DNA of 64,000 bases from Natronosalvus halobius (GTDB taxonomy: Archaea > Halobacteriota > Halobacteria > Halobacteriales > Natrialbaceae). The stretch lies in NCBI RefSeq assembly GCF_024138145.1, contig NZ_CP099997.1, positions 3,162,001-3,226,000 of the forward strand, in the 5' to 3' direction. Positions 19,320 to 61,611 of the stretch are shown here, in pieces. The position numbers and the translations under genes are program-made. Position 1 is the stretch's first letter. Each line of letters starts with the position of its first letter. A model generated the notes under the pieces. It saw only the letters and a list, made by a program, of their open reading frames with translations. It made no database searches and was not told the origin of the DNA.

Positions 19320-19749
19320 CGACCGGGTTCGTTCGACATTCTATCCATCTTTCAAAACGACCGAACGAGTGGCGGGCTACGTCATCGTCACCAACGACGA
19401 TAGAACGGTTCGTTCGGGGAGTACACACGAACAGCTCCTCCAGGAGAACGGAACTGCTCCAGGACTCGGTCACTACCAGGCAGTGTTCCTATCGGACTCG
19501 AGTGCGGCCTACGCGGTCGTCCCCGGGGCAACGATCAACGCGACCGTCTCACCGAACGAGGAGGTTTCGGTGCGGACGACCGTCGATGTGGACGGCCAGT
19601 CGCTCGAGTACGAGCGGGTCGTTGAAGCGGATGGAGAGAGACGACTTCAGGTCACCGTGGCCTATCCAGGGACGTACGACGTCGGGGGTCAGAGTGTGGC
19701 GGTGTCGCAGGCAGACGTCGGGTCCGGTGAGACGGTCGTCGTCGAGTAA
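19320..19749 (+). pseudogene. aglB: C-terminal remnant of an AglB (STT3) oligosaccharyltransferase
   Basis: The reading frame from about 19321 through 19749 encodes VAGYVIVTNDD, then AAYAVVPGATINATVSPNEE, then VTVAYPGTYDVGGQSVAVS. It lines up segment by segment with the last 130 residues of the AglB at 41758-44208 (VGYVIMTDVEG, AAFALVPGATIEGVGKANE, VTVPYPGKYSIGDSTVEIS). The membrane and catalytic parts are absent. The fragment begins right after the stop of the PGF-CTERM gene, so recombination or deletion probably joined the two. GC-rich codon use shows it came from a different AglB than the one in this window. Confidence 0.85.
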
Positions 19750-29317: not shown

Positions 29318-30418
29318 ATGATTACTGGGAAGAACGTTCTTCTGACGGGTGGGGCCGGCTCGGTGGGTCGGGCGCTTATCCCCAAATTACTGGATCAAAA
29401 CCCGAATGTTCTCCGAGTTTTCGATAACAACGAACCCGGCCTCGCCAAAATCAAATCGGCAGGTAGTGATGATCGATGTCGGTATCTTACGGGCGACGTT
29501 AGAGACAAAGATCGGTTATCACGAGCAATGGAAGAGATAGACATCGTCGTGCATACAGCGGCGATGAAACACGTGGACATCTGCGAGTACAACCCGTTTG
29601 AGGCGGTGAAAACGAATACACTCGGATTGCAGAATATCGTCGATACGGCTATTGATGCGGGTGCTGAGCGTGTGGTTTTTACGAGCAGCGATAAGGCTGT
29701 CAATCCGGCGAACACGATGGGAACGACGAAACTTCTGGGGGAGAAACTCATCACAGCAGGGAACAACCACCGTGGCGATCGAGATTTGCGACTAGCGTCC
29801 GTTCGCTTTGGCAATATCATCAATTCCTCCCAGTCGGTTATTCCGATCTTTACGGAGCAGATTCGCGAGGGCGGTCCTGTCACACTCACCGACGAACAAA
29901 TGACGCGGTTTTTCCTGACGTACGACGATGTCTTCGATCTCGTCACACAGGCTATTGAGAAAACGGCGGGTGGCGAGGTATTCGTATATAAGATGCCAGC
30001 GATCAAAATCGAGGACCTCGCGAAAGCAATGATCGAAACGCTGGCGCCGCAATTCGGCCATGATGCGGCAGAAATCGGGATCGAAGTAATCGGCCGCCGC
30101 CCTGGAGAGACGTTTCACGAGGAGATCATGACGAATCGTGAGGCACGAAGAGCGTACGAAAACGAGACACTGTACGCTATCGCGCCAGAGATGACTGAGT
30201 TTCAGGCCGTTGATGGCGTTGCGGAGTTCAAAGAAACCTCCGAGATCGTACTGTCATCAGAACACGCTCCGAAACTCTCGAAAAACGAAATAGTGACGCT
30301 GTTAGAGGAAAATGACGTTCTTGGCATGACCAGTGAGACGGCAAGCACTTCGGGGCGTAGCGCTGGCGCGTCATCGGAAGAGCAAAGACTCAGCTTTGAC
30401 GAATCGAGCACGCTTTAG
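29318..30418 (+). CDS. CapD/Pen-like UDP-GlcNAc 4,6-dehydratase, first step of the nonulosonate pathway
   Basis: A 366-residue short-chain dehydrogenase. It begins with the NAD motif LLTGGAGSVGRALI and has YLTGDVRDKDRL. The catalytic segment is FTSSDKAVNPANTMGTTK: the usual Tyr of YxxxK is Met, giving the Ser-Met-Lys set of CapD/WbpM rather than the Asp-Lys-Tyr set of PseB. The C-terminal part has MTRFFLTYDDVFDLV. It should remove water from UDP-GlcNAc. With the next gene it matches the two-enzyme Pen/Pal route to UDP-4-keto-6-deoxy-L-AltNAc known in Bacillus. The last 50 residues are a low-complexity extension. The next gene starts 6 bases downstream. Confidence 0.82.
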   Translation: MITGKNVLLTGGAGSVGRALIPKLLDQNPNVLRVFDNNEPGLAKIKSAGSDDRCRYLTGDVRDKDRLSRAMEEIDIVVHTAAMKHVDICEYNPFEAVKTNTLGLQNIVDTAIDAGAERVVFTSSDKAVNPANTMGTTKLLGEKLITAGNNHRGDRDLRLASVRFGNIINSSQSVIPIFTEQIREGGPVTLTDEQMTRFFLTYDDVFDLVTQAIEKTAGGEVFVYKMPAIKIEDLAKAMIETLAPQFGHDAAEIGIEVIGRRPGETFHEEIMTNREARRAYENETLYAIAPEMTEFQAVDGVAEFKETSEIVLSSEHAPKLSKNEIVTLLEENDVLGMTSETASTSGRSAGASSEEQRLSFDESSTL

Positions 30419-30424
30419 ATTAGA

Positions 30425-31378
30425 ATGACCAAGGAAATCGTCGTTACTGGTGCAGCAGGGTTTATCGGTCGATGGGTCACCAACGAATTACTTGCCCGCG
30501 GGCACCGCGTATATGGACTAGATGACTTCTCGAACGGCTCGTATCGCAACATCAAGGAACTCAATGAGTCAGAGCGATTTACGATCGCTGAAGGTGATAT
30601 CTGCGATGAGGACGCTGTCGATGAACTCTTTAACGAAGGTGTCGACGCCTGTATTCACCTCGCTGCGGAGATCGACGTTCAGGAGAGCCTCGAGGACCCG
30701 CAATCTCACTTCGACTCGAACGTCGTCGGCACGCAAAACGTCTTGGAGGCTTGCCGTCGGACGGATACGCGCCTCGGACTCGTCGGCACGTGTATGGTCT
30801 ACGACATGGCTGGTTCCGAGGAGGGCATCAGCGAAGAACATCCCGTTAAACCTGCATCACCCTACGCCGGTTCGAAGCTCGCGGCAGAGAACCTCGCGGA
30901 GAGCTACTACCACGGCTACGACCTCCCCGTTGTTATCCTCCGACCGTTCAACACGTACGGCCCCTTCCAGAAGACCGGAATGGCCGGCGGTGTCGTCTCA
31001 ATTTTCACGAACCGCGATAACCAGGGCGAACCGCTGAAGATTTTCGGCGACGGAACCCAGAGCCGGGACCTCCTGTACGCGACAGACTGTGCACGATTCA
31101 TCGTCGAAGGTACGTTCTGTGACGAAGCAGTTGGCGAGGTCTTGAACGCCGGGACCGGATCAGACATCTCGATCAACGAGCTAGCCGAACTAATTTCGAC
31201 CGACGGAACGGAAATCACACACGTCGAACACCACCACCCACAGAGCGAGGTGCAGACGCTCCGCTGTGATCCGAGTAAGGCCGAAGCCATGCTCGACTGG
31301 GAGCCAGAAGTGAGCCTCGAAGAAGGCGTCGACCGGCTTCGAACGTGGCTACGGGAAGAGGGTGCTGAACAGGCGTAG
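30425..31378 (+). CDS. NAD-dependent epimerase/dehydratase, Pal-like candidate
   Basis: A 317-residue extended short-chain dehydrogenase. VTGAAGFIGRWVTNELL binds NAD, and the catalytic YxxxK is SPYAGSKLAAE with VGTCMVYDMAG before it. RPFNTYGPFQ binds the sugar. Together with the CapD-like gene before and the PseC-like gene after, it occupies the place of Pal, which converts the dehydratase product by C5 epimerisation. That role is inferred from order only; a UDP-sugar 4-epimerase is the alternative. One base separates its stop from the next start. Confidence 0.8.
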   Translation: MTKEIVVTGAAGFIGRWVTNELLARGHRVYGLDDFSNGSYRNIKELNESERFTIAEGDICDEDAVDELFNEGVDACIHLAAEIDVQESLEDPQSHFDSNVVGTQNVLEACRRTDTRLGLVGTCMVYDMAGSEEGISEEHPVKPASPYAGSKLAAENLAESYYHGYDLPVVILRPFNTYGPFQKTGMAGGVVSIFTNRDNQGEPLKIFGDGTQSRDLLYATDCARFIVEGTFCDEAVGEVLNAGTGSDISINELAELISTDGTEITHVEHHHPQSEVQTLRCDPSKAEAMLDWEPEVSLEEGVDRLRTWLREEGAEQA

Positions 31379-31379
31379 T

Positions 31380-32570
31380 ATGACGGACCGAACGCCAGCA
31401 CTGTACGGCGGTAAGCCAGTTCGTGAATCAGTCCTCGGCTACGGCAGCCAGAGCATAACCGATCACGAGAAACAGGCCGTTCTCGAGGCACTCGAGGGAG
31501 ATTACATCACTCGCGGTCCCACTGTCGAGGAATTCGAAACTCGCGTTGCGGATTTCGTCGGTGTCGACCACGCGATTGCGACGACCTCTGGAACGACGGC
31601 GTTGCACCTCGCTGGCGACGCTGCCGGGTTCTCGGCTGGCGACGAGGTGATCACTACGCCACTGACGTTCGCATCGACGGCGCACGCAGCGACGTACAAC
31701 GATGCGACGCCAGTGTTCGCAGATATTGATCCGTATCGCCGAACGCTTGATCCGGAGGCGGTCCGCGAGCAGGTAACTGACGATACTGTGGGACTCGTTC
31801 CGATGCACTACGCTGGCCACCCTGCTGATATCGATGGGCTGCTCGAGGTTGCCGACGAGCACGACTTGACGGTCATCTGGGACGCCTGTCACGCCTTCGG
31901 TGGAACCTGGCGTGGCGAAGGAATCGGTGCCCAACGCGACATGGCCGTGTTTAGCTTCCATCCAGTGAAGAACGTCACGACCGGAGAGGGTGGCATGGTC
32001 GTAACCGATGATGACAACCTGGCTCGTCGACTTCGCCGACTTCGGTCGTTCGACATGAATTACGACCCGGCTGGGCACGAAGACGAGCCCTGGTACCAGG
32101 TGACCGAGAGCGTTGGCTACAACTACAACGTCACTGATCTGCAGGCTGCACTTGGATTGGCGCAGTTGGATCGACTCAGCGAGTTCAAAGAGCGACGCGA
32201 CGAGATTATCGACCGCTACAACGAGGCATTTTCTGGTATCGAGGGGATTCGAACGCCACCAGTACCGGAGGAGTCGGGTCCGATGTGTCATCTATACGCA
32301 GTCGAAATTGGTGAGGACTTTGGGTGCGATCGTCAGGAGTTCGTCCAGGCGATGCACGCGGAGAACATTGGTGTGCAAGTTCACTACGTTCCGCTTCACT
32401 ACCATCCGTACTTCCAGACGGAATTCGGATACAGTCGGGGCGAGTTCCCGAAGACGGAACAAGTGTACGACGGGCTAGTGAGTCTTCCACTTCATGCTGA
32501 GATGAACGGGGGGGACGTCGGAGACGTTATTACGGCGGTGACTGCGCTTCGATCACACCACCGGGAGTAG
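31380..32570 (+). CDS. pseC: PseC-like aminotransferase (DegT/DnrJ/EryC1 family)
   Basis: A 396-residue PLP enzyme starting MTDRTPALYGGKPVRESVLG. The cofactor Lys is in FSFHPVKNVTTGEGGMVV, and the Asp in VIWDACHAFGGTW binds the PLP ring nitrogen. GTTALHLAGDAAGF binds the phosphate. It would transfer an amino group to C4 of the 4-keto sugar, giving UDP-4-amino-4,6-dideoxy-AltNAc. The name rests on the pathway around it (dehydratase, PseI, PseG, PseH, cytidylyltransferase). The ATG at 31380 is preferred to a GTG further up inside the previous gene. Confidence 0.85.
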   Translation: MTDRTPALYGGKPVRESVLGYGSQSITDHEKQAVLEALEGDYITRGPTVEEFETRVADFVGVDHAIATTSGTTALHLAGDAAGFSAGDEVITTPLTFASTAHAATYNDATPVFADIDPYRRTLDPEAVREQVTDDTVGLVPMHYAGHPADIDGLLEVADEHDLTVIWDACHAFGGTWRGEGIGAQRDMAVFSFHPVKNVTTGEGGMVVTDDDNLARRLRRLRSFDMNYDPAGHEDEPWYQVTESVGYNYNVTDLQAALGLAQLDRLSEFKERRDEIIDRYNEAFSGIEGIRTPPVPEESGPMCHLYAVEIGEDFGCDRQEFVQAMHAENIGVQVHYVPLHYHPYFQTEFGYSRGEFPKTEQVYDGLVSLPLHAEMNGGDVGDVITAVTALRSHHRE

Positions 32571-32605
32571 GTGTCTTTATTTTGCTCCCGCGTTGGAGTT
32601 GGACC

Positions 32606-33655
32606 ATGGAACCGTTCACTATCGGCAATCGAAAAATTGGCCCAGACGAGCCAACGTACGTCATCGCGGAAGCCGGATCGAATCACAACGGTGACCTCGA
32701 GATTGCAAAAGAATTGATCGACGTTGCAGCTGATGCTGGTGCCGATGCAGTAAAATTTCAGACATTTCGGGCCGAGGATCTCTATGTTGAAGATAGCGGT
32801 GACGTAGAATACCTCGAGGATGAACGGTCTATCTACGAAATTATCGAGTCGATGGAAATGCCTTATGAGTGGATACCTATATTATATGACTATTGCAACC
32901 AACGTGGGATTGATTTTATGTCGACGCCATTTGACGAACGATCAGCCTCAGAACTGGAGGAATACGTATCCGCGTGGAAAGTCGCTTCGTATACGAGCAG
33001 CCACATCCCGTTTCTCGAATATCTGGCCGATACCGAGATGCCGATAATTATGTCGACAGGGGCTCATAGCCTTGAAGAAGTCTCCGAGTCAGTTTCGGTA
33101 CTTCGATCGGCTGGTGTCTCTGATCTCGTATTACTACAGTGTGTGGCAGCGTATCCGACGCCGCTATCGGAGATCAATCTACGTGTTATTGAAACACTAT
33201 CGAATGAATTTGAGATAATTTCTGGTCTGTCTGATCACACGCTTGATCCAACTATCGCACCCAGTGCTGCAGTCGCTCTCGGTGCCTGTGTCGTAGAAAA
33301 ACACTTTACGCTGGACAAGTCCATGGATGGGCCTGACCACGAGTTCGCCTTGGAACCTGCCGAACTCCAGGATATGATTACCACTATTCGCGCAACAGAG
33401 ACTGCACTCGGCTCTTCTGAGAAGCGTGTCCTTGAGGTCGAAAACGAACTTTACGAGAAGGCTCGGCGTGCGGTCCACGCCGTTTCTGATATTAGCGCAG
33501 GAGAGAGAATATCTGAGGAAAATGTCAAGATATTACGGTCTGGAAGTCAAGAAGGTGGCTTACCTCCAAAATTCTATAAAGAAATCACCGGGAAAATTGC
33601 GGCCCGACCTATTAACAGTGGTAAAGGCATTGAGTGGGACGATATCGATGTTTAA
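32606..33655 (+). CDS. pseI: Pseudaminic acid (nonulosonate) synthase, NeuB/PseI family
   Basis: A 349-residue protein starting MEPFTIGNRKIGPDEP. The N-terminal barrel has VIAEAGSNHNGDLEIAKELI and GADAVKFQTF; conserved metal- and PEP-binding parts include DHTLDPTIAPSAAVALGA and VEKHFTLDK. A C-terminal SAF (antifreeze-like) domain starts near residue 290 (ARRAVHAVSDISAGE). The enzyme joins phosphoenolpyruvate to a 6-carbon amino sugar, making the 9-carbon acid. It ends in a 4-base overlap with the convergent pseH-like gene. Confidence 0.92.
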   Translation: MEPFTIGNRKIGPDEPTYVIAEAGSNHNGDLEIAKELIDVAADAGADAVKFQTFRAEDLYVEDSGDVEYLEDERSIYEIIESMEMPYEWIPILYDYCNQRGIDFMSTPFDERSASELEEYVSAWKVASYTSSHIPFLEYLADTEMPIIMSTGAHSLEEVSESVSVLRSAGVSDLVLLQCVAAYPTPLSEINLRVIETLSNEFEIISGLSDHTLDPTIAPSAAVALGACVVEKHFTLDKSMDGPDHEFALEPAELQDMITTIRATETALGSSEKRVLEVENELYEKARRAVHAVSDISAGERISEENVKILRSGSQEGGLPPKFYKEITGKIAARPINSGKGIEWDDIDV

Positions 33656-34200
33656 GTAGTGTATTGTAACTTCACCCAGTCCCCATTTTCTGCTTGTTTC
33701 TCAAATCCGCATCGGCTGAATAATTGCATTGACTGTGTATTCTCATTAGAAACGTTCGCCGTTAACGGGGTATGATCGTCGAACCGATCACAAAGCCATC
33801 TAAGTGCACTCGTTGCCACACCGTATCCTTGTGCGGAATGTTCTCCGATGAAAATCCCGACTTCATCTTCCGAATTTAAACTAATACTTCCGACTCGTCG
33901 GCCTTCATAGTGTATAATAAAATCATATCGATTCTCATCTCTACTCTGAAACCAATTCAGGTGCTCTTCCCACGATAGTGGCCCATCTTGCTTACGAAAA
34001 TGCTCGTAAATCTCTGGAAAAGACCTCCATGCCAGTAGTAGTTCGAGATCGTTTCTATCTATTGACGAGATTCTCATTTCTGCCCTATCTTCCATGAGAT
34101 TCTCACAAGCATCACAACCGACCTTCTTCTCTTGCTTCCCACCGTTGTCTGTGCGATGCCTGAGTTTCTGATGACAAAATCCACAGTATGCCATAGCCAT
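33652..34200 (-). CDS. pseH: GNAT acetyltransferase (PseH-like) with N-terminal zinc ribbon
   Basis: A 182-residue protein. Residues 42-182 are a GNAT domain that starts MRISSIDRNDLELLLAWRSF, as PseH/SpsD proteins do, and has the acetyl-CoA loop EHSAQGYGVATSALRW and NTQSMQLFSRCGFE. It should acetylate the C4 amine of the PseC product. The first 40 residues carry two Cys pairs, CGFC and CDAC, forming a likely zinc ribbon not found in the bacterial enzymes I know. An internal ATG at 34077 would give the GNAT alone, so the extension depends on the true start. It follows pseG by 33 bases. Confidence 0.8.
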   Translation of the reverse strand: MAMAYCGFCHQKLRHRTDNGGKQEKKVGCDACENLMEDRAEMRISSIDRNDLELLLAWRSFPEIYEHFRKQDGPLSWEEHLNWFQSRDENRYDFIIHYEGRRVGSISLNSEDEVGIFIGEHSAQGYGVATSALRWLCDRFDDHTPLTANVSNENTQSMQLFSRCGFEKQAENGDWVKLQYTT

Positions 34201-34233
34201 AGAACTGGGCGAGTCGATAATACCATTGATGGT

Positions 34234-35241
34234 TTACGACGAATACCTGTTAGTTAAGCAATCCACTACCCGGTGTGTTCCTTTTCCATCAACGAGATTT
34301 CTTCCTAAACTCCGTCGATTCCACCTTAGATCTTTTTTCTGGATGTAGGTCTCTACTGCCTCTCGGAGTCTCGCTACATCACATTCTGGTTGGAGGACAG
34401 TCGCTGCGTCGCGCTTGAGAAGTTCCGCTGCGATTAGTTGTTGGTTGTCGACTACGGGAAGACTGATTATTGGCGTTCCAAGGGCCAGCATTTCGTACGT
34501 TGTAGTGCTTGCTGTACAAACTGCAAAGTCTGATTCGAAAATCCGTCGAGCGATATCGTCGGGCTCACGAATTGGATACACATCTGCAGAAACAGTTTCA
34601 GCGATCCGTCGAATATGGCGCTCTTGTCTCTCAGAAAAACCCGGCCCAATGATTGCGTCTACTCGGAGGCTGGTTCCATCAAAGCCTTCTAGTATTTTTG
34701 GTGTCATTTCAGTTGGGTCGCTTCCACCCATTGTAATGATGGTTCGTTCAGGCTGTTCTCGCCACGGTGGTTCCTCAACTGCTTTACTCGCTATAGATTC
34801 ACGGAGCAAGAGATAGTCGGCACCAAGACACCAAACGGGTTCATTACCCAAAACCTCGTACTCGAGCTCAGTCCCGTATATATTTCCGTTAATCACGACG
34901 TCTGCGCAGACAGGGTGACGTGTATCGTCTGAAACGAGAACAACTGATACTTTATCACGGATGGTTCGTTGATAGTCTTTGCCCGCCCTGTAGGAATCAA
35001 TCAAGACTACGTCGGTTTGGTCAGGGAGAACCTGAGTAAACGACCTGGGTTTATCTCTCGATTTGAGTTCGATGATTTCGACCGATGAGGGGGTTACTGA
35101 GGCAACATTTCTGGGAGTCGTCGTTGCATAGGTTACTTGATGCCCACGCCTCAGCAATTCTTCCGCTACTGCACTGGTACGAAAAAGATGTCCAAAACCA
35201 ATCTCTGCATTTCCGTCTGCCCGGATCGTAATCCTCATCAT
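34234..35241 (-). CDS. pseG: PseG-like UDP-sugar hydrolase
   Basis: A 335-residue GT-B-fold protein. The start IRADGNAEIGFGHLFRTSAV has the His of the PseG motif G-x-G-H. It also shows VLIDSYRAGKDY, IITMGGSDPTEMTP and CTASTTTYEMLALGTPII. PseG removes UDP from UDP-2,4-diacetamido-2,4,6-trideoxy-L-altrose so the synthase can use the free sugar. This is the strongest sign that the product is of the pseudaminic type, because legionaminic routes use a NeuC-like epimerase instead. Its ATG overlaps the stop of the previous gene by 4 bases. Confidence 0.9.
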   Translation of the reverse strand: MMRITIRADGNAEIGFGHLFRTSAVAEELLRRGHQVTYATTTPRNVASVTPSSVEIIELKSRDKPRSFTQVLPDQTDVVLIDSYRAGKDYQRTIRDKVSVVLVSDDTRHPVCADVVINGNIYGTELEYEVLGNEPVWCLGADYLLLRESIASKAVEEPPWREQPERTIITMGGSDPTEMTPKILEGFDGTSLRVDAIIGPGFSERQERHIRRIAETVSADVYPIREPDDIARRIFESDFAVCTASTTTYEMLALGTPIISLPVVDNQQLIAAELLKRDAATVLQPECDVARLREAVETYIQKKDLRWNRRSLGRNLVDGKGTHRVVDCLTNRYSS

Positions 35242-35984
35242 ATTTCTTTTTGATTTACATGTTTATTGACATCCATTAAATCCTGCTCATCTACATAACG
35301 AACTGCATCCTGGATTGGGAGGATTTCATCGTATGCTACATTATCGTATACTTGACGAAGAACTTCGTAATCTGGTCCTTCATCGAGGGTCAATCGGAGA
35401 TCCGTTCGATTATGCATCCATTCCTGATTGAAGACTTCGTCAGATGTGACGTTCTCGAGTCTAAATTGGTCTTGGTTCTCGTGGTAGTAAGGCGTGACAT
35501 GTTCTCGATGGTGCTGCTCAGTTGCATCGATTTGAATTTTCTCAAAACTGTTCTTTGTGAAGGCCTCTACGTCCAATCCTCTCGGAAAAGTACGTTTGAG
35601 AACATTTGTTGCATAGTCACTTCCCGTCTCTACCAGTCTGGTGGTTACAGCATCAATAGTCCGGGGATCAATGAGTGGACAATCGCCAGTAATTCGAACG
35701 ACAATATCTGGGTCGTGCTGCTCTACGATTTGCACAAATCGACTCAGAACGTCTGATTCTGATCCTCGAAGAACATCAGCATCGCATAGTGGGGCAGATC
35801 GATATATGACTTCGTCCTGTGGTTCTGTCGACGTTGCAACGACCACATTTGTGACTTGCTCCGCAGCCTGTACTCGCCTGGTAACGTGACCGATTGCTGG
35901 CTCTCCGTTCAAAGGATACATCACTTTTCCAGGAAGACGACTTGATCCGACTCGAGCCTGAATTGTAGCGGTTACCTTTTTCAT
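35238..35984 (-). CDS. pseF: SpsF/PseF-like cytidylyltransferase
   Basis: A 248-residue protein starting MKKVTATIQARVGSSRLPGK, where the Arg and Lys of the SRLPGK loop bind CTP. VRITGDCPLIDPRTID has the metal-binding Asp. It belongs to the SpsF group of the CMP-sugar synthetases. It would charge the nonulosonate as the CMP form for glycosyltransferases. The frame opens further upstream to 36122, but the extra 46 residues have no family character. First gene of a leftward trio with pseG and pseH. Confidence 0.87.
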   Translation of the reverse strand: MKKVTATIQARVGSSRLPGKVMYPLNGEPAIGHVTRRVQAAEQVTNVVVATSTEPQDEVIYRSAPLCDADVLRGSESDVLSRFVQIVEQHDPDIVVRITGDCPLIDPRTIDAVTTRLVETGSDYATNVLKRTFPRGLDVEAFTKNSFEKIQIDATEQHHREHVTPYYHENQDQFRLENVTSDEVFNQEWMHNRTDLRLTLDEGPDYEVLRQVYDNVAYDEILPIQDAVRYVDEQDLMDVNKHVNQKEI

Positions 35985-36234
35985 TGGTTGTGATTTGGCT
36001 TCTTTATCCTTACACTTATTGGTCCTATGGAGGTCAAGAGTGTTTTTAGGTGGGTTTACTTTGTGAGAATAGGCAGTATTACTCTGAATCTCCAATTCAA
36101 CACCAACCAAGTTTTGCTCCACAACCTTTGAATTTCATCATTGTAGGCTCATGTGTTTTCACCTACCAATATGCCAAGTATGCCGATAGTCAAAAGAGTA
36201 ATAATGCTATGAAAAAACCTCAAAATAGAGTATT

Positions 36235-40738: not shown

Positions 40739-41680
40739 CTATGATGAACGGACAAGCGGATCGTACCAATCCTGGTTAGCACGATCCCACTCGATAAATT
40801 TCGAAATACCCTGTCGAATATCCACACTCGATTCGTAGCCGAGCAGGTCGTTAGCCTTCGCGATATCTGCGTGGGTATGCTCTGCGTCACCCTCTCGAGG
40901 CTCCCCAAACTCGATTTCGAGAGTCGGATCGATTTCGTTGCGGATGGCCTCTGCGAGGGTGAGGCCGTCGATGTTGTCCGTTGAGCCGACGTTCAGGATC
41001 TCGCCGTCGGCACTGTCGTCGGTGAGTAGCTGTTCGTTGACGCCGACGACGTCGTCGATATAGGTGAAACCGCGCGTCTTTGAGCCGTCGCCGTAGATCA
41101 CCGAGGATTCGCCGTGGAGACACCGTGAGACGAAATTTGTCATCGCCATGTTCGGGCGCATTCGGGGCCCGTAGACGGTGAAATATCGGAATGAGACCGT
41201 TGGCAGGCTGTAGATTTCGTTGTAGACCCGTGCATACTGCTCGGTCGCGAGTTTGGAGACGCCGTAGGGCGACACTGGATACGTCGGATGATTCTCGTCG
41301 TAGGGGAGATACTCCGGTTTGCCGTAGACAGAGGAGGGGGAGGCGACGACGCGCTCGAGGTCGTGGGCGCGAGCGGTTCGAGCAGATTGATCGTCCCGTC
41401 GACGTTGAAGGCGTTGACCTTCGCCGGCTCCTCGACGCTCTTTCGGACGCCGGCCTGGGCCGCCTAGTGGTAGACCACGTCGGCGTCGGCGACGAGGTCG
41501 TCGAGGAGGGACTGGTCGGTGATCGAGCCCTCGACGAACTCGTAGTTCGAATCAGCGTTTTCGGCCGCTGCCTTCGCCGCGTCGATATTGTGCTCCTTGA
41601 TCCCGAGGTCGTAGTAGGGCTCGAGATTGTCGAGGACTTGAGACGGGCCGAGCGTGGCTGCCGCCTTTCGAGCTATCGGT
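40739..41680 (-). pseudogene. NAD-dependent epimerase (UDP-sugar 4-epimerase type), decayed
   Basis: The last 178 residues are open (SPYGVSKLATEQYARVYNEI, RYFTVYGPRMRP). Upstream the same protein continues in other frames. At 41464-41466 an in-frame TAG replaces the Gln of the usual VVYHQAAQAGVRKSV. Near 41370 one base is missing in the LLEAARAHDLERVV segment. Finally the NAD-binding GGAGFIG start is gone: homology fades around 41670, about 80 bases from the divergent aglB. With three separate lesions it is a dead gene. The downstream open part might still be translated but lacks the cofactor domain. Confidence 0.9.
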
Positions 41681-41757: not shown

Positions 41758-44208
41758 ATGGCTGCGGCAGACCGCGTCGCTGTATACGAGGCTACAACCC
41801 AGTTCCTTGAGGAACAACCTAAGGGCGAAGATGCACTCAAGGCCGTCCTTGAGGTAGATTCGCAACTCGAAACGTGGACCTTCGATGATATTGACCTCGA
41901 TTCGGGTACATTCGGTGAGTTGGTCTCTAGAGGGATTGTCGAGAAGGTAGATGAGGAGTATCGGATCACCGATCGTACGGCCATCAAGGCCGTGGTGGCG
42001 GGCAAGGATGTCGTCGCGGATTCGTCGTCCAAGAAGTCGTGGCAGTCTTTGCTTGAGTTCGATCTGGGTATCTGGGGTGACCGACGGGCGCTCGGCGGAC
42101 TGGTCGGCGCACTGTTGTTGGTCTTCACGATGCGAATTACTCAGTACAGAGCGGTGTTCCGCGGCGACCACGTCGTCTCGCCGGGAAACGACCCGTACTA
42201 CTATCGGTACTGGATGGAGGCATTACTGGCCGAGTCCTCAAGGCCGACAGATATTGGGCTACTTTCGGAGATGCCAGAAAGTGCAAACACTATGCGCCCG
42301 CTAACCCACGCGCTGAACTGGTGGTTCGCAACGCTGTTAGGGGGCGACCAGTGGGCCGCCGACATAGTCGCAACTTGGCTCCCTATCGTTGCGACGCTCG
42401 CACTAGGTATCGTCATCTACGCGCTAGCAATAGTAGTGACGAGGGATATCCGCATTGGACTCGCTTCGGTCATACTTTTCGGTGTTGCACCCGTTCATGT
42501 CGTCTATACGCAGGTGGGCTTTCTCGAGCACCGACTACATCAATACTTTTGGCTTGGCGTGACGCTGCTGGTGTTGGCGTGGCTTGCGGTCGATCTACGT
42601 CAGCGATTCGAGTCTGAGAATCAGCGGGCAGCTGTTCGAGAACACCTCTTGTCGCCCGTGACGTGGATTTTTGCGGTTATATTAGGTCTCGCGCTCGGGA
42701 TTTCGGTCCACCTCTGGGGTGGGTCACCATTGATGTTTGTTCCCTTAGCGGTGTACATTGGACTGCGAGCGATTCTTGATGCTCGCGAGGGCATTCCACC
42801 AATGCTGGCGAATTTTCCGTTAGTGGTCGGTCTCGCGTTAAGTAGCACACTCTCGGCTTGGGTCCACATCAACTGGGGCTGGCGAGAGCCATTCGTTGCC
42901 TACACGCCTGGGATGGTGCTCGTAGTGACTGTCCCCGTTCTTCTCTTAGGGGAACTCTGGCAACGATTTCAATGGCACAATAGTAGACTGGTGGCGGTTG
43001 AGGTCGGCGTCGCCGGATTAGGGCTGTACGTGCTTTGGTTAGTTCGGCCAAATGATTGGACTGACATTCAAGGACGAGTCGACAGTCTGTTCTTCAGGGA
43101 GGGCGCCACTGAGACATCTTCGTTGTTCACCTTCGACTATGGGGTGATCTTTGGACCATTGACCCAGATTGGAGTGGGGTTTTATCTTGGTGTTGCAGTA
43201 CTTATTTGGACTATCTGGATAGTCAATAAACGATATGAACCCGCGTGGCTGTTGCTTGCGGTCTACACGTCATACTTCATGGTGTTGGCGGGAATACAGG
43301 TTCGGTTCGCTGCGCAACTTGTTGTTTCGTTATCCTTTCTTGGCGGTGTTGGCTTCGTGTACGTTCTGTCAGCAATTGACCTCGTACGATGCCCTCTGCC
43401 GTTGCAGAGCGGTAGCAACCAATTCCAGTCAGAGGTACCCGATAGTGGGAGTGGTGAACAGTTGATTACGTTTCCCGATCGGCGAAAAGCCGCATACATT
43501 CTTGGGATCGGATTGCTTATCTGCAGCTTCAGCTTTCTCTATATTCCCGGGCTGTCCGGACAAATCTCGTATAGCGATGCAGAGTTCGACGCTGCGATGG
43601 CGATTAATGAGCACTCAGCGGAAACTGATCGCGGATATTCTGAAAATTATGTGATAAGTGAATGGGGCAATAATCGGATGTACAACTACTTCGTGAGCGG
43701 AGAATCGGAAAGCTATCGGTACGCGAGAACATATTTCAATGACTTCCGCTTTGGCGACGATCCTGACGACTACTACGACCAGTTTGGAAACCGAGTTGGA
43801 TATGTTATCATGACTGATGTTGAAGGTAATTTGCCGGCAGACACTGCGCAAGTACAATTAATGGAGGAATTTGGAACAGGGAATAATACTACCAAGCCGC
43901 TAGACCACTACCGACTTTTGACCATTAATAACGAACGGACTGTTGCAGCATTCGCCTTGGTACCGGGTGCAACGATTGAAGGTGTCGGCAAAGCGAACGA
44001 GACTGTGAACGTAAGTACAGATGTGTCCGTCGACGGGGCGTCCTTCACATACGAGCGCGAAGTAACCGTTGGAGAGGGCGGCCAATTTAAGGTGACGGTA
44101 CCATACCCTGGCAAGTACTCGATCGGCGACAGTACTGTTGAAATTTCTGAGGAACATGTAGAAAACGGGTTAAAGATCAAAGTTGATAGCTCTGGTGGCA
44201 CTGTCTAG
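41758..44208 (+). CDS. aglB: AglB-type oligosaccharyltransferase (STT3) with N-terminal winged-helix-like domain
   Basis: An 816-residue protein. Residues 1-95 are soluble and helix-turn-helix-like (WTFDDIDLDSGTFGELVSRG then IVEKVDEEYRIT). About 12 membrane helices follow (112-610). The first acidic motif GNDPYYYRYW has Asp145, and VGFLEHRLHQ is in the second lumenal loop. The expected WWDYG reads SEWGNNRMYNYF (Trp636), so the Asn-binding motif is altered. The C-terminal domain is beta-rich. AglB moves a lipid-linked glycan onto Asn on the outer face. The last residues GTV and the stop come from the inverted repeat of a mobile element. The dead epimerase is divergent. Confidence 0.87.
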   Translation: MAAADRVAVYEATTQFLEEQPKGEDALKAVLEVDSQLETWTFDDIDLDSGTFGELVSRGIVEKVDEEYRITDRTAIKAVVAGKDVVADSSSKKSWQSLLEFDLGIWGDRRALGGLVGALLLVFTMRITQYRAVFRGDHVVSPGNDPYYYRYWMEALLAESSRPTDIGLLSEMPESANTMRPLTHALNWWFATLLGGDQWAADIVATWLPIVATLALGIVIYALAIVVTRDIRIGLASVILFGVAPVHVVYTQVGFLEHRLHQYFWLGVTLLVLAWLAVDLRQRFESENQRAAVREHLLSPVTWIFAVILGLALGISVHLWGGSPLMFVPLAVYIGLRAILDAREGIPPMLANFPLVVGLALSSTLSAWVHINWGWREPFVAYTPGMVLVVTVPVLLLGELWQRFQWHNSRLVAVEVGVAGLGLYVLWLVRPNDWTDIQGRVDSLFFREGATETSSLFTFDYGVIFGPLTQIGVGFYLGVAVLIWTIWIVNKRYEPAWLLLAVYTSYFMVLAGIQVRFAAQLVVSLSFLGGVGFVYVLSAIDLVRCPLPLQSGSNQFQSEVPDSGSGEQLITFPDRRKAAYILGIGLLICSFSFLYIPGLSGQISYSDAEFDAAMAINEHSAETDRGYSENYVISEWGNNRMYNYFVSGESESYRYARTYFNDFRFGDDPDDYYDQFGNRVGYVIMTDVEGNLPADTAQVQLMEEFGTGNNTTKPLDHYRLLTINNERTVAAFALVPGATIEGVGKANETVNVSTDVSVDGASFTYEREVTVGEGGQFKVTVPYPGKYSIGDSTVEISEEHVENGLKIKVDSSGGTV

Positions 44209-44759: not shown

Positions 44760-44966
44760 TTGAACAGGAACGACATCTTTGAACTATTTACAAGGAGAAT
44801 TGCATTGAGAAGCTATTCGCACGATATATGGTTACTTAGCAGATACATTCCTAATTACCGTGATGATATGGATAATACTGAACTAAATAAGTTACTTTCT
44901 TGGACTGAAACTAATATCTATGGAACGACCGGGCGTGTGAAGATATCAATAGATCGAATGCTATGA
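44760..44966 (+). CDS. Possible small gene coupled to the Wzx flippase gene
   Basis: A 68-codon frame starting MNRNDIFELFTRRIALRSYS. Its stop overlaps the ATG of the flippase gene in the arrangement ATGA (44963-44966), a common translation-coupling layout. The composition is AT-rich like the flippase. The sequence is protein-like but matches no family I know; it has no membrane segment. It may instead be the tail of a gene cut by the mobile element at 44671. Confidence 0.35.
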   Translation: MNRNDIFELFTRRIALRSYSHDIWLLSRYIPNYRDDMDNTELNKLLSWTETNIYGTTGRVKISIDRML

Positions 44967-46435
44967 ACCGGTCGCTTTCGTTTGCTATTAGTGCTGTATT
45001 TAGTGCCAGGATTTTTATTATTGTCGTTGGTGCACTTATCACTCCCCTACTAACACGATTGTTAGGTCCATCATCATATGGCCAATATGCTACAATACTT
45101 TCGATATTTCTATTGGTAAAAATACTTATGGTGTCTGGAATCCGAAGCGGAACAAAGAAATATTTGTCAGAGGAACGCTCGATACCAAACTGGAAAAATC
45201 ATGTTTTATCCACCTATCTGCACATATCAATAATATTTGGCAGTTTGTTTGCCTTTGGATTAGCAACTCTATCTGCAAGTGGAATTATCGCCATTACATT
45301 TGGTGAATCTTACATTTTATTATTCTACTTGCTTTCAATCCTTGCGTTAATCACCCAATTCCGAAACTTGTTAGTCAGTGCGCTTATGGGTCTACAACTT
45401 GAAAAATATTCGGAGCCAATCAAAATATTTGAGAAAGCAACATTCGGGATCGTAGCCATTACCCTAACGGCAATTGGATTTGGCGTACCTGGGGTGATTA
45501 TAGGTCATATCATTTCAGTTGGGCTTGCCTTATTAATCTGTTCAGTAATTGTCCACAACCAAATTGATTTGTCAAAAATCACGGATCCCATTCCGAAGGA
45601 GTTTCCGAAACGAGAGCTATGGAAATTCAACTATAGTTCTGTGCTTTTTGCCTTCCTACTATATTCGCTCTATCATGTTGATGTAATTTTGTTGCAGATA
45701 TTTACAGGTGAGGAAACTGTAGGATATTACAAGGCTGCACTTGTTATTGTTGAATTGCTCTGGGTAATACCTCGTTCGATTCAATCAGTATTGATTCAGT
45801 CTGTCTCCGAATATTGGAGATTGGGTTCCATCTATAAAATCAACGAATTATCATCTAAAATAACAAAATATGTGTCCTTAATCACTATATTGTTAGCTGT
45901 CGGACTAATGGTACTCGCTGAGGCGTTTATGCCGTTTTATTTCGGTGATAGTTACTCCCCAGCGACAACACCACTTCTGATACTATTGCCTGGAACAATT
46001 TGTTTCGCAGTCATCAGACCATCTCTTGCTATTACTCATGCAAAAGGTGATATGAGACTATTGATCACTGGAACAGGTATTGCTGCTGGAATCAATATAA
46101 TATTAAATATGCTATTAATTCCGCCCTATGGAATGGTAGGTGCCGCTGTTGCTACAACTCTGGGTTACAGCTCGTTATTGATAACCCAATTGCTCTCTGC
46201 ACGATCCATTGGGTATAATCCGTTTTCTGGTACACAACCGGTCCGTGTAATTATCACAGGAATTCTAACTGGAATTGTACTATTTGTTGTTCAGTATAAT
46301 ATAACAAGCCCAATACACAAGCTCATAATAATTCCCCCCTTAGGTGGGGTCCTGTTCACACTGATCGCTATAGGATTGGGCATAATAACATGGGAGAAAA
46401 TCCGTACTACCTGGACTATGATTTTCACAGATTAG
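44963..46435 (+). CDS. Wzx-type oligosaccharide flippase
   Basis: A 490-residue integral membrane protein of the MATE/MOP-like polysaccharide group, with 12-14 hydrophobic segments from residue 5 to 485. The start FSARIFIIVVGALITPLLTR, then LLGPSSYGQYATILSIFLLV is typical of Wzx. A conserved middle reads EETVGYYKAALVIVELLWVI. It would carry a lipid-linked oligosaccharide to the outer face of the membrane, giving substrate to AglB or to the Wzy candidate at 50349. Strongly AT-rich, unlike aglB, which suggests separate transfer. Confidence 0.9.
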   Translation: MNRSLSFAISAVFSARIFIIVVGALITPLLTRLLGPSSYGQYATILSIFLLVKILMVSGIRSGTKKYLSEERSIPNWKNHVLSTYLHISIIFGSLFAFGLATLSASGIIAITFGESYILLFYLLSILALITQFRNLLVSALMGLQLEKYSEPIKIFEKATFGIVAITLTAIGFGVPGVIIGHIISVGLALLICSVIVHNQIDLSKITDPIPKEFPKRELWKFNYSSVLFAFLLYSLYHVDVILLQIFTGEETVGYYKAALVIVELLWVIPRSIQSVLIQSVSEYWRLGSIYKINELSSKITKYVSLITILLAVGLMVLAEAFMPFYFGDSYSPATTPLLILLPGTICFAVIRPSLAITHAKGDMRLLITGTGIAAGINIILNMLLIPPYGMVGAAVATTLGYSSLLITQLLSARSIGYNPFSGTQPVRVIITGILTGIVLFVVQYNITSPIHKLIIIPPLGGVLFTLIAIGLGIITWEKIRTTWTMIFTD

Positions 46436-53775: not shown

Positions 53776-53798
53776 GGAACGTACAGAGATTTCATGTG

Positions 53799-54905
53799 AT
53801 GGATGGACTCCACTTGACAACTGCACATACACCACTTGATACACGTATATTTGATAAAGAGGCAAAAAGTCTCGCGGAGTACGGATTTGATATTGGAATT
53901 ATGGCTCATAATACCCCAAATGGTGAAGATTACCAAGTTTCATTTTATGACTTGGGGATACCGTCTACACGCATTGATCGCTGGAAGAACGTTCTACAGG
54001 CAGCTAGAAAAGCGAAGGACTTAGATGCATCTATCTATCATTTCCATGATCCGGAGCTGATACCAGTTGGATTGTACTTATCTAAGATGACGGACTCTGC
54101 TATAATCTATGATGTGCATGAGGACTATGGACATATTGCATCCATGAGAGAGTGGATTCCTAACATGGTGGCCCCATTTCTTTCGAGAGGAGTTCCCCAA
54201 ATAGAGAGATATGCATCTTCTCGATTTGATGCTGTAGTTACTGTTTCAGAATGGATTGCAGAACCGTTTGTTGATATAAATGATAATGTCTGTATTGCAC
54301 ATAATTTCCCAAAAGTAGGTTCACAACCCGTTCATGATAAATCAATCGAACGAACTTCTGAATATGTGCTTTGTTATGTAGGGGGATTGGTAGATGTTCG
54401 AGGCATTCATCGTATGTTGCGTGTTCTAAAAATATTAGTTGATCGCGATATTGACATTGAGTTATGGGCTATTGGATCTTGGAAACCTGACGCAAACAAA
54501 GCACAAGCAAAACATTTCATTCAAGAAAATGGATTGACTTCACGTGTTAAATTCCCTGGATATTTAGATCACGACGAGATGTTTCAATATCTCTATTCAG
54601 CAGATGTTGGACTTGCCCTATTAGATGTTCAGCATTATCAAAAAGGAGTTCCAACAAAACTTTTCGAATACCTTTATGCTGGATTACCAATTATTGTGAC
54701 TCCGATTGACGCAATTGGTAAATACATGCCTGAAAAATATTGTCACACAGTCTCACAAAGCGATATGGTTGCAACAGCAGAAACCATAGAGACGGCACTT
54801 GAGACTAACTATGACAAGCAAGAGATGCGGTCACTTGTAGAGGAGAAGTATAGTTGGGAGTCCGAAGCTGAGTCTCTTATATCTCTTTATAATAGATTGG
54901 TCTAG
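53799..54905 (+). CDS. GT4-like glycosyltransferase
   Basis: A 368-residue GT-B enzyme beginning MDGLHLTTAHTPLDTRIFDK. The N-terminal half has IYHFHDPELIPVGLYLSKM and IIYDVHEDY; the C-terminal half has YVLCYVGGLVDVRGIHRMLR, FPGYLDHDEMFQYLYSADVG and GVPTKLFEYLYAGLPIIVTP. The Lys-x-Phe-Glu-Tyr motif is the GT4 donor site. It adds a hexose-type sugar to the growing glycan; the donor is unknown. The start is chosen by the TATA spacing. AT-rich. Confidence 0.87.
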   Translation: MDGLHLTTAHTPLDTRIFDKEAKSLAEYGFDIGIMAHNTPNGEDYQVSFYDLGIPSTRIDRWKNVLQAARKAKDLDASIYHFHDPELIPVGLYLSKMTDSAIIYDVHEDYGHIASMREWIPNMVAPFLSRGVPQIERYASSRFDAVVTVSEWIAEPFVDINDNVCIAHNFPKVGSQPVHDKSIERTSEYVLCYVGGLVDVRGIHRMLRVLKILVDRDIDIELWAIGSWKPDANKAQAKHFIQENGLTSRVKFPGYLDHDEMFQYLYSADVGLALLDVQHYQKGVPTKLFEYLYAGLPIIVTPIDAIGKYMPEKYCHTVSQSDMVATAETIETALETNYDKQEMRSLVEEKYSWESEAESLISLYNRLV

Positions 54906-56431: not shown

Positions 56432-57496
56432 TCATTGTAAATCCTCTAAGGCTTGGACGATTTTGCTTGCTGCTGCACCATCGCCATATGGTTGCGCATC
56501 TGATTCTGGATAAGGGGGGTCTAATAGTGCCTCTCTAATCAGTTCAGAATTTGCTCCGACCAAGATATTGCCCCTAGCTTCAACTGTTTCTGGCCATTCA
56601 GTTTCTTCTCGTAGTGTGATGCAGGGAGTGCTGAGGAAAAATGCCTCTTTTTGAACACCTCCTGAATCAGTCACAATTACGTTTGCCTTTGCTTGGAGCT
56701 TTACGAAATCAAGATAGCCAAGCGGGTCAACGAGTATAAGTTCGTCTTTGGCTTTCTTCAGTAGATCGTAGTGGGAAAGCTGTTCTCTTGTCCTTGGGTG
56801 GGCGGGAAAGACAACAGGGCGTCGATCTTCTATTAAGGGCGAAAGGATGGCGCCCAGTCGGTCTCGGTTATCCGTGTTTCGAGGTCGATGAACTGTCGCA
56901 AGGAGATAATCTGTGTTTATGAGATTGAGATCTTCAAGAATCGTTGATTGTTTTGAGGCCTTTTCATGTGCCCACAATAATGAGTCATACATAACATCAC
57001 CTACATTGCGAACGTTGTCTGTGATATCTTCTTTCTTTAATTGTTCCAGAGCACGTTCACTCGGCGTGAATAGAATATTCGATGCGTGGTCAGTTAGAAC
57101 TCGGTTTACCTCTTCTGGCATATTACGATTAAAACTTCTGAGTCCGGCTTCAACGTGTGCAAGTTGCACGTCCATCTTTGAGGCGGCTATAGCTGCTGCA
57201 AGTGTTGAGTTCGTATCTCCATAGCAGAGTACTAGATCCGATTGGTACTCACTTATGAGTTCCTCAAGATCAACCATCATTTGGGCAGTTTGCTTTGCGT
57301 GGCTCTCAGATCCAACACCCAAGTTATGATCTGGCTCAGGAATACCGAGTTCGTCGAAAAAGATATCCGAAAGCTCCTCATCGTAATGTTGTCCAGTATG
57401 AACGAGCACTTCGTTATGTTGTGGCCGGAGTTCTCGAGAGACAATAAAGGCTTTAACGAATTGTGGTCGTGCACCGACTACGGTAAGTACGTTCAT
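56432..57496 (-). CDS. wecB: UDP-sugar 2-epimerase, non-hydrolysing (WbpI/WecB family)
   Basis: A 354-residue protein starting MNVLTVVGARPQFVKAFIVS, with VHTGQHYDEELSDIFFDELG, LAHVEAGLRSFNRNMPEEVN, NVRNVGDVMYDSLL, LVDPLGYLDFVKL and IVTDSGGVQKEAFFL. All the binding residues of the family are present. WecB makes UDP-ManNAc; WbpI does the same on UDP-GlcNAc3NAcA. The divergent operon contains the other four Wbp steps, so WbpI is the better guess, though sequence alone does not decide. The extra start at 57508 is dropped. Confidence 0.9.
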   Translation of the reverse strand: MNVLTVVGARPQFVKAFIVSRELRPQHNEVLVHTGQHYDEELSDIFFDELGIPEPDHNLGVGSESHAKQTAQMMVDLEELISEYQSDLVLCYGDTNSTLAAAIAASKMDVQLAHVEAGLRSFNRNMPEEVNRVLTDHASNILFTPSERALEQLKKEDITDNVRNVGDVMYDSLLWAHEKASKQSTILEDLNLINTDYLLATVHRPRNTDNRDRLGAILSPLIEDRRPVVFPAHPRTREQLSHYDLLKKAKDELILVDPLGYLDFVKLQAKANVIVTDSGGVQKEAFFLSTPCITLREETEWPETVEARGNILVGANSELIREALLDPPYPESDAQPYGDGAAASKIVQALEDLQ

Positions 57497-57613
57497 AATC
57501 GTACACAAAACCTACCACGGCATTTTCTTATGTCATTCGATACCGTTGTTGTGGCCGCTTCATTGATTACTGGGATCCATATGAATCGGAAGATTATCAG
57601 GCACTGACCACAA

Positions 57614-59263: not shown

Positions 59264-60230
59264 GGAAATCGACGTTGGTGTTATGGGTGTTGGATCAATG
59301 GGCCAGCACCATGCGCGGGTGTATAGTGAAATTCCGAACGTAAATCTTGTCGGAATCTCTGATCTCAACGAGGAACGCGCAAGCACAGTCGCCCAAAAGC
59401 ACGATACAGTGGTGATGGATAGCGACGAACTTTTGGCTACTGTTGATGCTGTCTCAGTAGTCGTTCCAACCCAATTTCACTACGATATGGTAACGACGTG
59501 TCTCGATGCAGATGTTGCGACGTTCGTGGAAAAACCTGTCTTGGATAATCTCGATCGTGCTGAAGACCTTCGATCACGGGTTAAATCTGTAGATGTTCCC
59601 GTACAGGTTGGTCATATTGAACGATTCAATCCAGCGATAACCGCACTAAAAGAGATTATTGATGATCTGTCAATCGTCAGTATTCGAGCTCAGCGGCTCG
59701 GCCCGTCGCCTGACCGAAAAATAAAGGATAGCGCAGTCTTGGATCTAATGATCCACGATATCGATATCGTTCTGTCCCTCTTCGGAGAAAGACCCTCCTC
59801 GGTCACAGCAAATGGTGTCAATGAGAACCGACATGCTGCGGCACTTTTGGGATTTAGTGGGGATCGAATGGCATCACTCACTGCGAGTCGAAAGACACAG
59901 CAGAAAGTCCGGACACTCGAAATCACCGCAGAAGAATGTTTCATCGAACTGGATTACATCGATCAATCGATAGAGATCCACCGGAATTCGGTCCCAGAAT
60001 ACATCGAAAAGAACGGGGACGTTCGGTTCAAACACGAGAGTATCATCGAACGGCCGACCATTCAAACTAACGAACCGCTACGCAAAGAACTTGAATCGTT
60101 CATTGAGGCGACAAGGTCTAACTCACCACCAGAAGTCACCGTCCAGGATGGAATTGATGCACTCGCAGTAGCTTTAGAGATTGAAGGAATAGCCAACTCC
60201 GAAATACAGGAGGTGAATTTTGATGAGTGA
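59253..60230 (+). CDS. WbpB-like Gfo/Idh/MocA sugar-nucleotide 3-dehydrogenase
   Basis: A 325-residue oxidoreductase starting MSRKEIDVGVMGVGSMGQHH. The NAD motif GVMGVGSMG, the family triad FVEKPVLDN (Glu-Lys-Pro) and GHIERFNPAI are present. LDLMIHDIDIVLSLFG includes the usual catalytic Asp/His. It would oxidise C3 of UDP-GlcNAcA for amination by the aminotransferase. It starts 11 bases inside the previous gene and overlaps the next by 8, so the operon is tightly packed. Confidence 0.88.
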   Translation: MSRKEIDVGVMGVGSMGQHHARVYSEIPNVNLVGISDLNEERASTVAQKHDTVVMDSDELLATVDAVSVVVPTQFHYDMVTTCLDADVATFVEKPVLDNLDRAEDLRSRVKSVDVPVQVGHIERFNPAITALKEIIDDLSIVSIRAQRLGPSPDRKIKDSAVLDLMIHDIDIVLSLFGERPSSVTANGVNENRHAAALLGFSGDRMASLTASRKTQQKVRTLEITAEECFIELDYIDQSIEIHRNSVPEYIEKNGDVRFKHESIIERPTIQTNEPLRKELESFIEATRSNSPPEVTVQDGIDALAVALEIEGIANSEIQEVNFDE

Positions 60231-61611
60231 GAGCAACACGTCACAGGCCGGTGTCACGAAACTCTATGGGTCGGACAGCAATGAAACGCTTCAACGAGAG
60301 GCATTCTTGAACGGTGAAATCCCGGTTGCTGTCTACGGTTTAGGGAAAATGGGCCTTCCCCTGGCTTCAGTATTCGCTGAAACCTGTGGAAACGTCATCG
60401 GCGCAGATATCAATCCAGAGGTGGTGGCGACTATACAGAGTGGAAATAGTCATATTAAACGAGAGCCCGGTCTTGGAGATCTCGTTGAGAAACTTGTTAC
60501 ATCCAACGATCTCCGAGCGACTAAGGAGCCCCGTGAGGCCGTACAGTCAGCGTCAGTTCACGTAGTTATCGTTCCAACGCCGATCACTGATGAAAAAGAG
60601 CCCGATTTAGCTATCTTAGACGCCGTTGTTTCGGATATCGCAACGGGGCTAGACGAGGGCGATTTGGTGCTAATCGAGTGTACCGTTCCGCCCAAAACGA
60701 CAGAAGAGCGCGTGTTTGAACAGCTAAAATCCGAGTCTTCACTCTCTGAGGGGGAGTTTGGGGTCGCGTTCTGCCCTGAGCGCACCTCCTCGGGTCGAGC
60801 CTTGAAGGATATTCGAGGTGCGTATCCGAAAGTTGTTGGAGGTGTTGATGCTGAAAGTACGCGAGCAGCATCAATTATCTATAGCGAAGTGAATTCTGAG
60901 GGGGTACTCGAGGTTTCAGATGCGACAACTGCTGAAGCAATAAAAGTGTTCGAGGGAGTATATCGAGACGTCAACATCGCTTTAGCGAACGAGTTGGCAC
61001 AATTCACCGATGAACTGGGAATTGATGTTCGTGAAGCAATTGAGGTTGCAAATACCCAGCCGTTCTGTAATATCCACGATCCCGGTCCAGGAGTGGGTGG
61101 TCATTGCATTCCGTATTATCCATACTTCCTGATCAAGCCGTTTGACGCTCCTTCGCCGCTTCTCTCTACTGCCCGGTCAGTGAACGATTCAATGCCGGAA
61201 TTCACCGTCTCGAAAGTATGCGAGGGACTACAAACAGGGGGTATTGATGTTGAAAATGCAACTGTAGTAATTTTTGGATTGACATATCGACCCGGTGTCG
61301 AGGAAATACGAGCCTCTCCCTCAATTCCAATTTCACGTGAGCTAACTCAGCTCGGGGCAGATGTCTATGGAGTTGATCCGGTACTTGAGACGTTTGAGGC
61401 ATTCAGCGTTGAACCGATTACGATTGAAGACATGTATCAACTAGATATCGATGCTGTAGTACTCGTTACACCACATAATGAATTTGAATTGATTCGATGG
61501 AACGAATTAGAAACCAGCGAGAATGGACCTTTTGTCGTCATTGATGGGCGAGCAACGCTTGATGATATGAATCTCTGGTGCTACACAATTGGATCAGGGG
61601 CGAACAATTAG
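60223..61611 (+). CDS. wecC: UDP-N-acetylhexosamine 6-dehydrogenase (WbpA/WecC family)
   Basis: A 462-residue protein from the ATG at 60223, with AGGAGGTG about 8 bases upstream. The NAD motif is VYGLGKMGLPLASVFAETCG; IECTVPPKTTEE and FCPERTSSGRALKDI follow. The catalytic Cys is in GPGVGGHCIPYYPYFL (about residue 290). FGLTYRPGVEEIRASPSI is the C-terminal domain. It oxidises C6 of UDP-GlcNAc (WbpA) or UDP-ManNAc (WecC) to the uronic acid. The other genes here point to UDP-GlcNAc as the substrate. Confidence 0.92.
   Translation: MSESNTSQAGVTKLYGSDSNETLQREAFLNGEIPVAVYGLGKMGLPLASVFAETCGNVIGADINPEVVATIQSGNSHIKREPGLGDLVEKLVTSNDLRATKEPREAVQSASVHVVIVPTPITDEKEPDLAILDAVVSDIATGLDEGDLVLIECTVPPKTTEERVFEQLKSESSLSEGEFGVAFCPERTSSGRALKDIRGAYPKVVGGVDAESTRAASIIYSEVNSEGVLEVSDATTAEAIKVFEGVYRDVNIALANELAQFTDELGIDVREAIEVANTQPFCNIHDPGPGVGGHCIPYYPYFLIKPFDAPSPLLSTARSVNDSMPEFTVSKVCEGLQTGGIDVENATVVIFGLTYRPGVEEIRASPSIPISRELTQLGADVYGVDPVLETFEAFSVEPITIEDMYQLDIDAVVLVTPHNEFELIRWNELETSENGPFVVIDGRATLDDMNLWCYTIGSGANN

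Follow-up and report, generated by a model that had tools for sequence, protein, structure and literature searches.

STT3 enzymes have been taken to N-glycosylate by one defining rule, the Asn-x-Ser/Thr sequon, and the locus described here raises the question of what an STT3-type protein might recognise when its WWDYG motif has been replaced by something else. The window (the whole stretch of 64,000 nucleotides from Natronosalvus halobius that was analysed) encodes such a protein, named OSTp here. Its features are as follows, the conservation counts referring to 88 aligned full-length relatives.

41758 to 44208, plus strand: OSTp, a WWDYG-less STT3/AglB paralog of 816 amino acids, with an ATG start, no internal stop and an intact open reading frame
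41770 to 42000, plus strand: predicted N-terminal winged-helix domain (residues 5-81), common to haloarchaeal EMC3/TMCO1-type insertases
42184 to 42192, plus strand: first catalytic motif of DXD type, G-N-D (residues 143-145), with N144 and D145 kept in 88/88
42526 to 42543, plus strand: second DXD-type motif, E-H-R-L-H-Q (residues 257-262), which is D-H-H-A-F-D in the other OSTp clade
43102 to 43113, plus strand: TIXE equivalent, G-A-T-E (residues 449-452), with the external-loop-5 Glu in 86/88
43297 to 43308, plus strand: Q-V-R-F (residues 514-517), with an invariant Arg near the phosphate site
43657 to 43689, plus strand: WWDYG position, S-E-W-G-N-N-R-M-Y-N-Y (residues 634-644), R640 and N643 in 88/88 and W636 in 87/88
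43966 to 44115, plus strand: AglB_L1 peripheral domain (PF18079, residues 737-786), from Pfam

The membrane core and the WWDYG position

It is clear from the sequence and fold homology of its membrane core that OSTp is a member of the STT3/AglB/PglB superfamily. The OSTp profile matched canonical AglB over 701 columns (hhalign E=1e-53), and the top Foldseek matches were to A. fulgidus AglB-L (PDB 3WAK, 5GMY, 7E9S). AglB_L1 was found at 33.9 bits against a Pfam cut-off of 23.6, and the NCBIfam model TIGR04154 gave a sub-threshold match (119.6 bits; curated cut-off 450). PF02516 was not listed among the Pfam matches of the window protein; a relative, L054, scored above the cut-off for that family (37.4 bits versus 24.5). 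A phmmer comparison of OSTp with PDB sequences gave no match, and an AF2 model of the whole protein, built from ten sequences, had a poor core (pLDDT 50). With haloarchaeal AglB (TIGR04154, e.g. that of Haloferax volcanii) OSTp shares the STT3 fold, the membrane core, G-N-D, the external-loop Glu, the conserved Arg and AglB_L1, but it lacks WWDYG, carries an extra N-terminal winged helix and has a shorter C-terminal part. Furthermore, the window genome also encodes a normal, full AglB (854 bits), around 136 kb from OSTp, which retains VMSWWDYGHLIT.

The earlier note on this DNA had proposed that the WWDYG motif was altered, one Trp being kept and Asp-Tyr-Gly lost, and this was borne out by a gap-free alignment. 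Residues 632-645 of OSTp are VISEWGNNRMYNYF, and the OSTp equivalent of the AglB segment VMSWWDYGHLIT is VISEWGNNRMYN; canonical V-M-S-W-W-D-Y-G-H-W-I-T becomes V-I-S-E-W-G-N-N-R-M-Y-N, the second Trp of the motif being kept and the first Trp and D-Y-G lost. A true WWDYG elsewhere in the chain, which the note itself had set against its claim, was looked for and none was found; “WW” and “DYG” occur as separate strings only at 188 and 460, which are unrelated to the motif position. WWDYG is missing from all 88 aligned full-length relatives, where the replacement reads V-[LF]-S-x-W-G-x-N-R-x-Y-N and is as conserved as the motif that was lost. Residues R126, N144, D145, Y147, P209, G254, H258, H370, W375, G472, R516, F517, V632, R640 and N643 are invariant in 88/88, and E452 (86/88) and W636 (87/88) are nearly so; the Thr of TIXE is not retained in the 88 aligned members.

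Roles were assigned to these residues by aligning the profile to AglB and by reference to the published structure of the A. fulgidus enzyme (PMC8342417). D145 maps to the catalytic/metal Asp of Gly-Asn-Asp, 257-259 to the second DXD, E452 to the TIXE Glu and R516 to the Arg near the phosphate. The A. fulgidus enzyme, the best structural match, has the same Gly-Asn-Asp, and its Asp-His-His is found in one OSTp clade; the binding of the sequon Ser/Thr by WWDYG and DK motifs and the monophosphate donor are features of A. fulgidus AglB (PMC8342417) that set the two apart. Two sub-types of OSTp can be told from the second DXD, one with D-H-H-x-F-D as in AglB and one, including the window protein, with E-H-R/D-H-Q-x-H-Q. 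D-H-H, the euryarchaeal form of the motif, is present in 45/88. The window protein shares E-H-R with about 25 further members, and most of these proteins have a new His two positions later; because of this E-H-R, the metal site must differ in the window clade. With the core residues kept and the Ser/Thr-reading WWDYG gone in every member, the catalytic chemistry of OSTp looks retained and its recognition of the acceptor altered.

In a protein search OSTp matches (E below 1e-40) were found in 125/243 haloarchaeal genomes from 45 genera, and canonical AglB scored above its cut-off in 235/243. A tree of the membrane core split 88 OSTp paralogs and 29 canonical AglBs by a single branch with support 100; this separate clade and the invariant replacement motif of its 88 members rule out that OSTp is a decayed AglB copy. 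The subfamily is haloarchaea-specific and present in about half of the haloarchaea surveyed. Outside class Halobacteria no genome had the whole architecture (N-terminal domain at E <= 1e-15), the methanogen-side matches covering part of the membrane core only; a wider archaeal family was ruled out by the same confinement of the N-terminal domain, and a viral origin by the lack of any relative in IMG/VR. A large conserved subfamily beside normal AglB goes beyond the earlier note, as do the sharing of the N-terminal domain with EMC3/TMCO1 and the tie to a phosphoglycosyl transferase described below. Some OSTp proteins (L054:8551-11580 and several other loci) have an additional lectin domain at the C-terminus, laminin-G/ConA-like and about 170 amino acids long, and a broken second copy at G095:C1:214034-214499 lies beside S-layer genes in a genome without PF02397.

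The N-terminal domain

The first membrane helix of OSTp is preceded by about 95 soluble residues that had been thought, from their appearance, to be a winged helix, and structure prediction agreed. In an AF2 model (pLDDT 86.6 overall) residues 3-81 form helix-helix-helix-strand-strand-helix with pLDDT above 90, and the best structural matches were winged-helix domains (ORC, CodY and others; Z 5-7.7); Foldseek alone gave no significant match for this domain (E about 0.2). As modelled, the N-terminal 80 or so residues fold as a winged helix of three helices and a two-strand wing.

When the profile of this domain was run against 59 genomes, nearly every genome yielded one further protein, of around 300 amino acids (E 1e-5 to 1e-14). 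These proteins are EMC3/TMCO1-type insertases (PF01956), and 15/15 of those sampled aligned to the window genome's own EMC3/TMCO1 copy with 37-69% identity. The shared domain of about 78 residues lies just before the first membrane helix in both families; the remainder of the insertase is Oxa1-type and unrelated to STT3. In the haloarchaeal insertases (window genome copy, L306) the N-terminal winged helix falls outside the Pfam match. From the STT3 fold, the domain in OSTp would be expected to face the cytoplasm, and it may serve for docking at the ribosome or translocon.

Genomic partners and the probable glycan carrier

The genes of the OSTp glycan island considered here, and the remains of a second OSTp copy, are the following.

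44963 to 46435, plus strand: Wzx/MurJ-type polysaccharide flippase, the next same-strand gene after OSTp
53796 to 54905, plus strand: GT4 glycosyltransferase of the island
56432 to 57508, minus strand: UDP-GlcNAc 2-epimerase (WecB)
60220 to 61611, plus strand: UDP-glucose/GDP-mannose dehydrogenase of the island
G000:C1:3227254-3228708, minus strand: PF02397 phosphoglycosyl transferase, 1.25 kb past the window end
19324 to 19749, plus strand: start-less relic of a second OSTp copy, covering its C-terminal domain, with 39% identity to residues 679-810

The commonest single-copy partner in 68 OSTp neighbourhoods was the PF02397 phosphoglycosyl transferase (30 loci, often as the next gene), the other neighbours including GT4s, epimerases, nucleotidyltransferases, flippases and GlmS. 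PF02397 was present in 121/125 genomes with OSTp and in 39/118 others (Fisher 1e-28), and none of 20000 within-genus shuffles of the 243 genomes gave so high an association; since 39 genomes have PF02397 without OSTp, the enzyme must also serve other pathways. Where all three genes shared a contig (26 genomes), the median distance to PF02397 was 12 kb for OSTp and 944 kb for canonical AglB, and PF02397 lay less than 30 kb from OSTp in 23/26 and from canonical AglB in 0/26. OSTp differs from haloarchaeal AglB in being linked to a phosphoglycosyl transferase and not to the DolP pathway. PF02397 enzymes give rise to polyprenyl-pyrophosphate sugars, and the donors of haloarchaeal AglB are DolP-linked. 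Taken together with the linkage, this suggests that OSTp, in contrast to AglB, probably takes its glycan from a dolichol-PP donor.

Several other genes of the window were noted. The OSTp relic (19324-19749) is flanked on one side by the gene of a CARDB secreted protein (15906-19319) and on the other by that of an ABC exporter (19856-21661). A nonulosonic (sialic-like) acid set occupies 29318-36122 and comprises a dehydratase, an epimerase, a DegT aminotransferase, NeuB, a GNAT protein and a cytidylyltransferase. Just upstream of OSTp on the opposite strand, an NAD-dependent epimerase is split over two frames (40739-41650, minus strand) and is probably a pseudogene. An archaeal CDP-glycerol:poly(glycerophosphate) glycerophosphotransferase at 23471-24676 (PF04464, 213 bits) hints at a teichoic-acid-like polymer.

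Asparagine at the S-layer N-terminus

The suggestion, also made in the earlier note, that acceptor recognition had moved away from Asn-x-Ser/Thr finds indirect but strong support in the S-layer proteins of the same genomes. For each genome a single S-layer candidate was used, chosen by TIGR04216 first and then by TIGR04207, and mature N-termini were predicted by a simple A-x-A cleavage rule. Asn was found at predicted mature positions 1-3 in 53/67 OSTp carriers compared to 4/44 non-carriers (p=7e-14). A sequon-less Asn at the mature N-terminus was seen in 39/67 carriers and 0/44 non-carriers; in 15/67 carriers the N-terminal Asn lay in a canonical sequon, and in all 4 of the non-carriers that have one it lay in an ordinary sequon. 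Because the idea arose from the first 30 loci, the test was rerun without the discovery genomes, with similar results (41/52 carriers against 2/36; p=1.6e-12). The correlation also held when one value was taken per genus and state (p=2.5e-7), and within-genus shuffling equalled it in 6/20000 cases. At mature positions 4-12 of the same genomes, Asn gave no signal with OSTp presence. Among genomes with PF02397, 52/64 OSTp carriers had Asn at positions 1-3, against 0/6 non-carriers; many of the 12/64 with both genes that lack Asn at 1-3 have it at position 4. The window genome's own S-layer-type protein has the predicted mature start A-H-N-D-S, its Asn lying within a sequon.

Two of the three carriers without PF02397 in the S-layer set, G043 and G168, also lack the N-terminal Asn. 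The G043 protein is the one clearly degenerate OSTp (E452 to Q), and its coincidence with the lack of both PF02397 and the Asn is as would be expected if activity is selected. The same coincidence speaks against OSTp being an inactive protein that regulates or partners AglB, a possibility to which the one changed metal ligand of the window clade (D-H-H to E-H-R) might point; with the catalytic Asp, His and Arg invariant and the full D-H-H present in about half of the 88, we regard this as highly improbable. Alternatively, OSTp could read sequons as an ordinary oligosaccharyltransferase does, through a diverged pocket, and add a different glycan to Asn-x-Ser/Thr sites. The retained core residues are consistent with this, as are the 15/67 carriers whose N-terminal Asn is in a canonical sequon, but all 88 members have lost the residues known to bind the +2 hydroxyl and have another invariant set instead, and the sequon-less Asn is the main pattern (39/67 versus 0/44); this possibility appears quite improbable.

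It could also be that OSTp moves pyrophosphate-linked glycans to some other acceptor (Ser/Thr, lipid or polysaccharide) and that the S-layer Asn is a by-product of common ancestry or of S-layer genes being inherited together with OSTp. The loss of WWDYG would fit such an activity, the islands contain polysaccharide genes (the CDP-glycerol glycerophosphotransferase and a capsule-type gene), and S-layer genes sometimes adjoin OSTp and could travel together with it. However, the Asn signal is position-specific and mostly sequon-less, and it persisted within genera as well as in a separate test set. The TIXE Glu, which faces the acceptor in AglB, is also retained in 86/88 OSTp proteins; we judge a different acceptor to be unlikely.

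Judging from homology, conservation, the shared N-terminal domain, gene linkage and the correlation with the N-terminal Asn, we think it likely that OSTp is a second, dedicated STT3-fold oligosaccharyltransferase that transfers a pyrophosphate-linked glycan to the N-terminal Asn of S-layer proteins independently of the sequon, perhaps while docked at the translocon. The PF02397 phosphoglycosyl transferase would start the glycan on a pyrophosphate-linked dolichol carrier, probably with HexNAc-1-phosphate, and a Wzx or ABC flippase would flip it. Following signal peptide cleavage, OSTp would attach the glycan to an Asn that forms or adjoins the new S-layer N-terminus (typically A-N-x-x), with no need of Ser/Thr at +2, the W-G-x-N-R-x-Y-N surface taking the place of the hydroxyl-reading WWDYG pocket. 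The N-terminal winged helix would probably dock OSTp at the ribosome or translocon, allowing the emerging N-terminus to be modified early. The chances are roughly even for the fuller proposal, namely that OSTp forms a distinct sequon-blind branch which is docked at the translocon, marks one Asn at the free S-layer N-terminus and is responsible for the sequon-independent N-glycosylation of Halobacterium.

A second haloarchaeal transferase has long been inferred, as H. salinarum has two N-glycans on different carriers and tolerates loss of the sequon Ser; OSTp would supply a concrete gene, a genomic partner and a predicted acceptor for this missing enzyme. The S-layer Asn-2 of H. salinarum bears a repeating sulfated glycan derived from dolichol pyrophosphate (PMC2952790, PMC8674786, PMC6591318), and Ser-4 of its Asn-Ala-Ser sequon is exchangeable, according to the title of Zeitler 1998 as cited in PMC2952790. 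The Asn-2 transferase has been described as not assigned, or as perhaps not AglB (PMC3871713, PMC6591318). These literature features (dolichol pyrophosphate donor, Asn-2 acceptor, dispensable Ser-4) are matched by the genome features with which OSTp correlates; the H. salinarum enzyme differs in never having been cloned, and the survey for OSTp covered other haloarchaea. The properties expected of that enzyme are combined in OSTp, which is tied to a probable pyrophosphate-linked donor and to an N-terminal acceptor and has lost the sequon pocket. OSTp is the best candidate so far for this second glycosyltransferase and most likely represents the type of transferase behind the Asn-2 glycan.

In Hfx. 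volcanii AglB is the only STT3 homolog reported (PMC3871713) and no PF02397 match was found. OSTp is therefore unlikely to be the Asn-498 transferase of that species, which must be something else.

A 30-residue H. salinarum S-layer peptide (from PMC8674786) matched genome G064 with 83% identity over 29 residues. G064 has its S-layer gene around 3.3 kb upstream of OSTp; GlmS, a pair of GlmU-like genes and PF02397 follow, and the predicted mature start of the S-layer protein is A-N-A-D.
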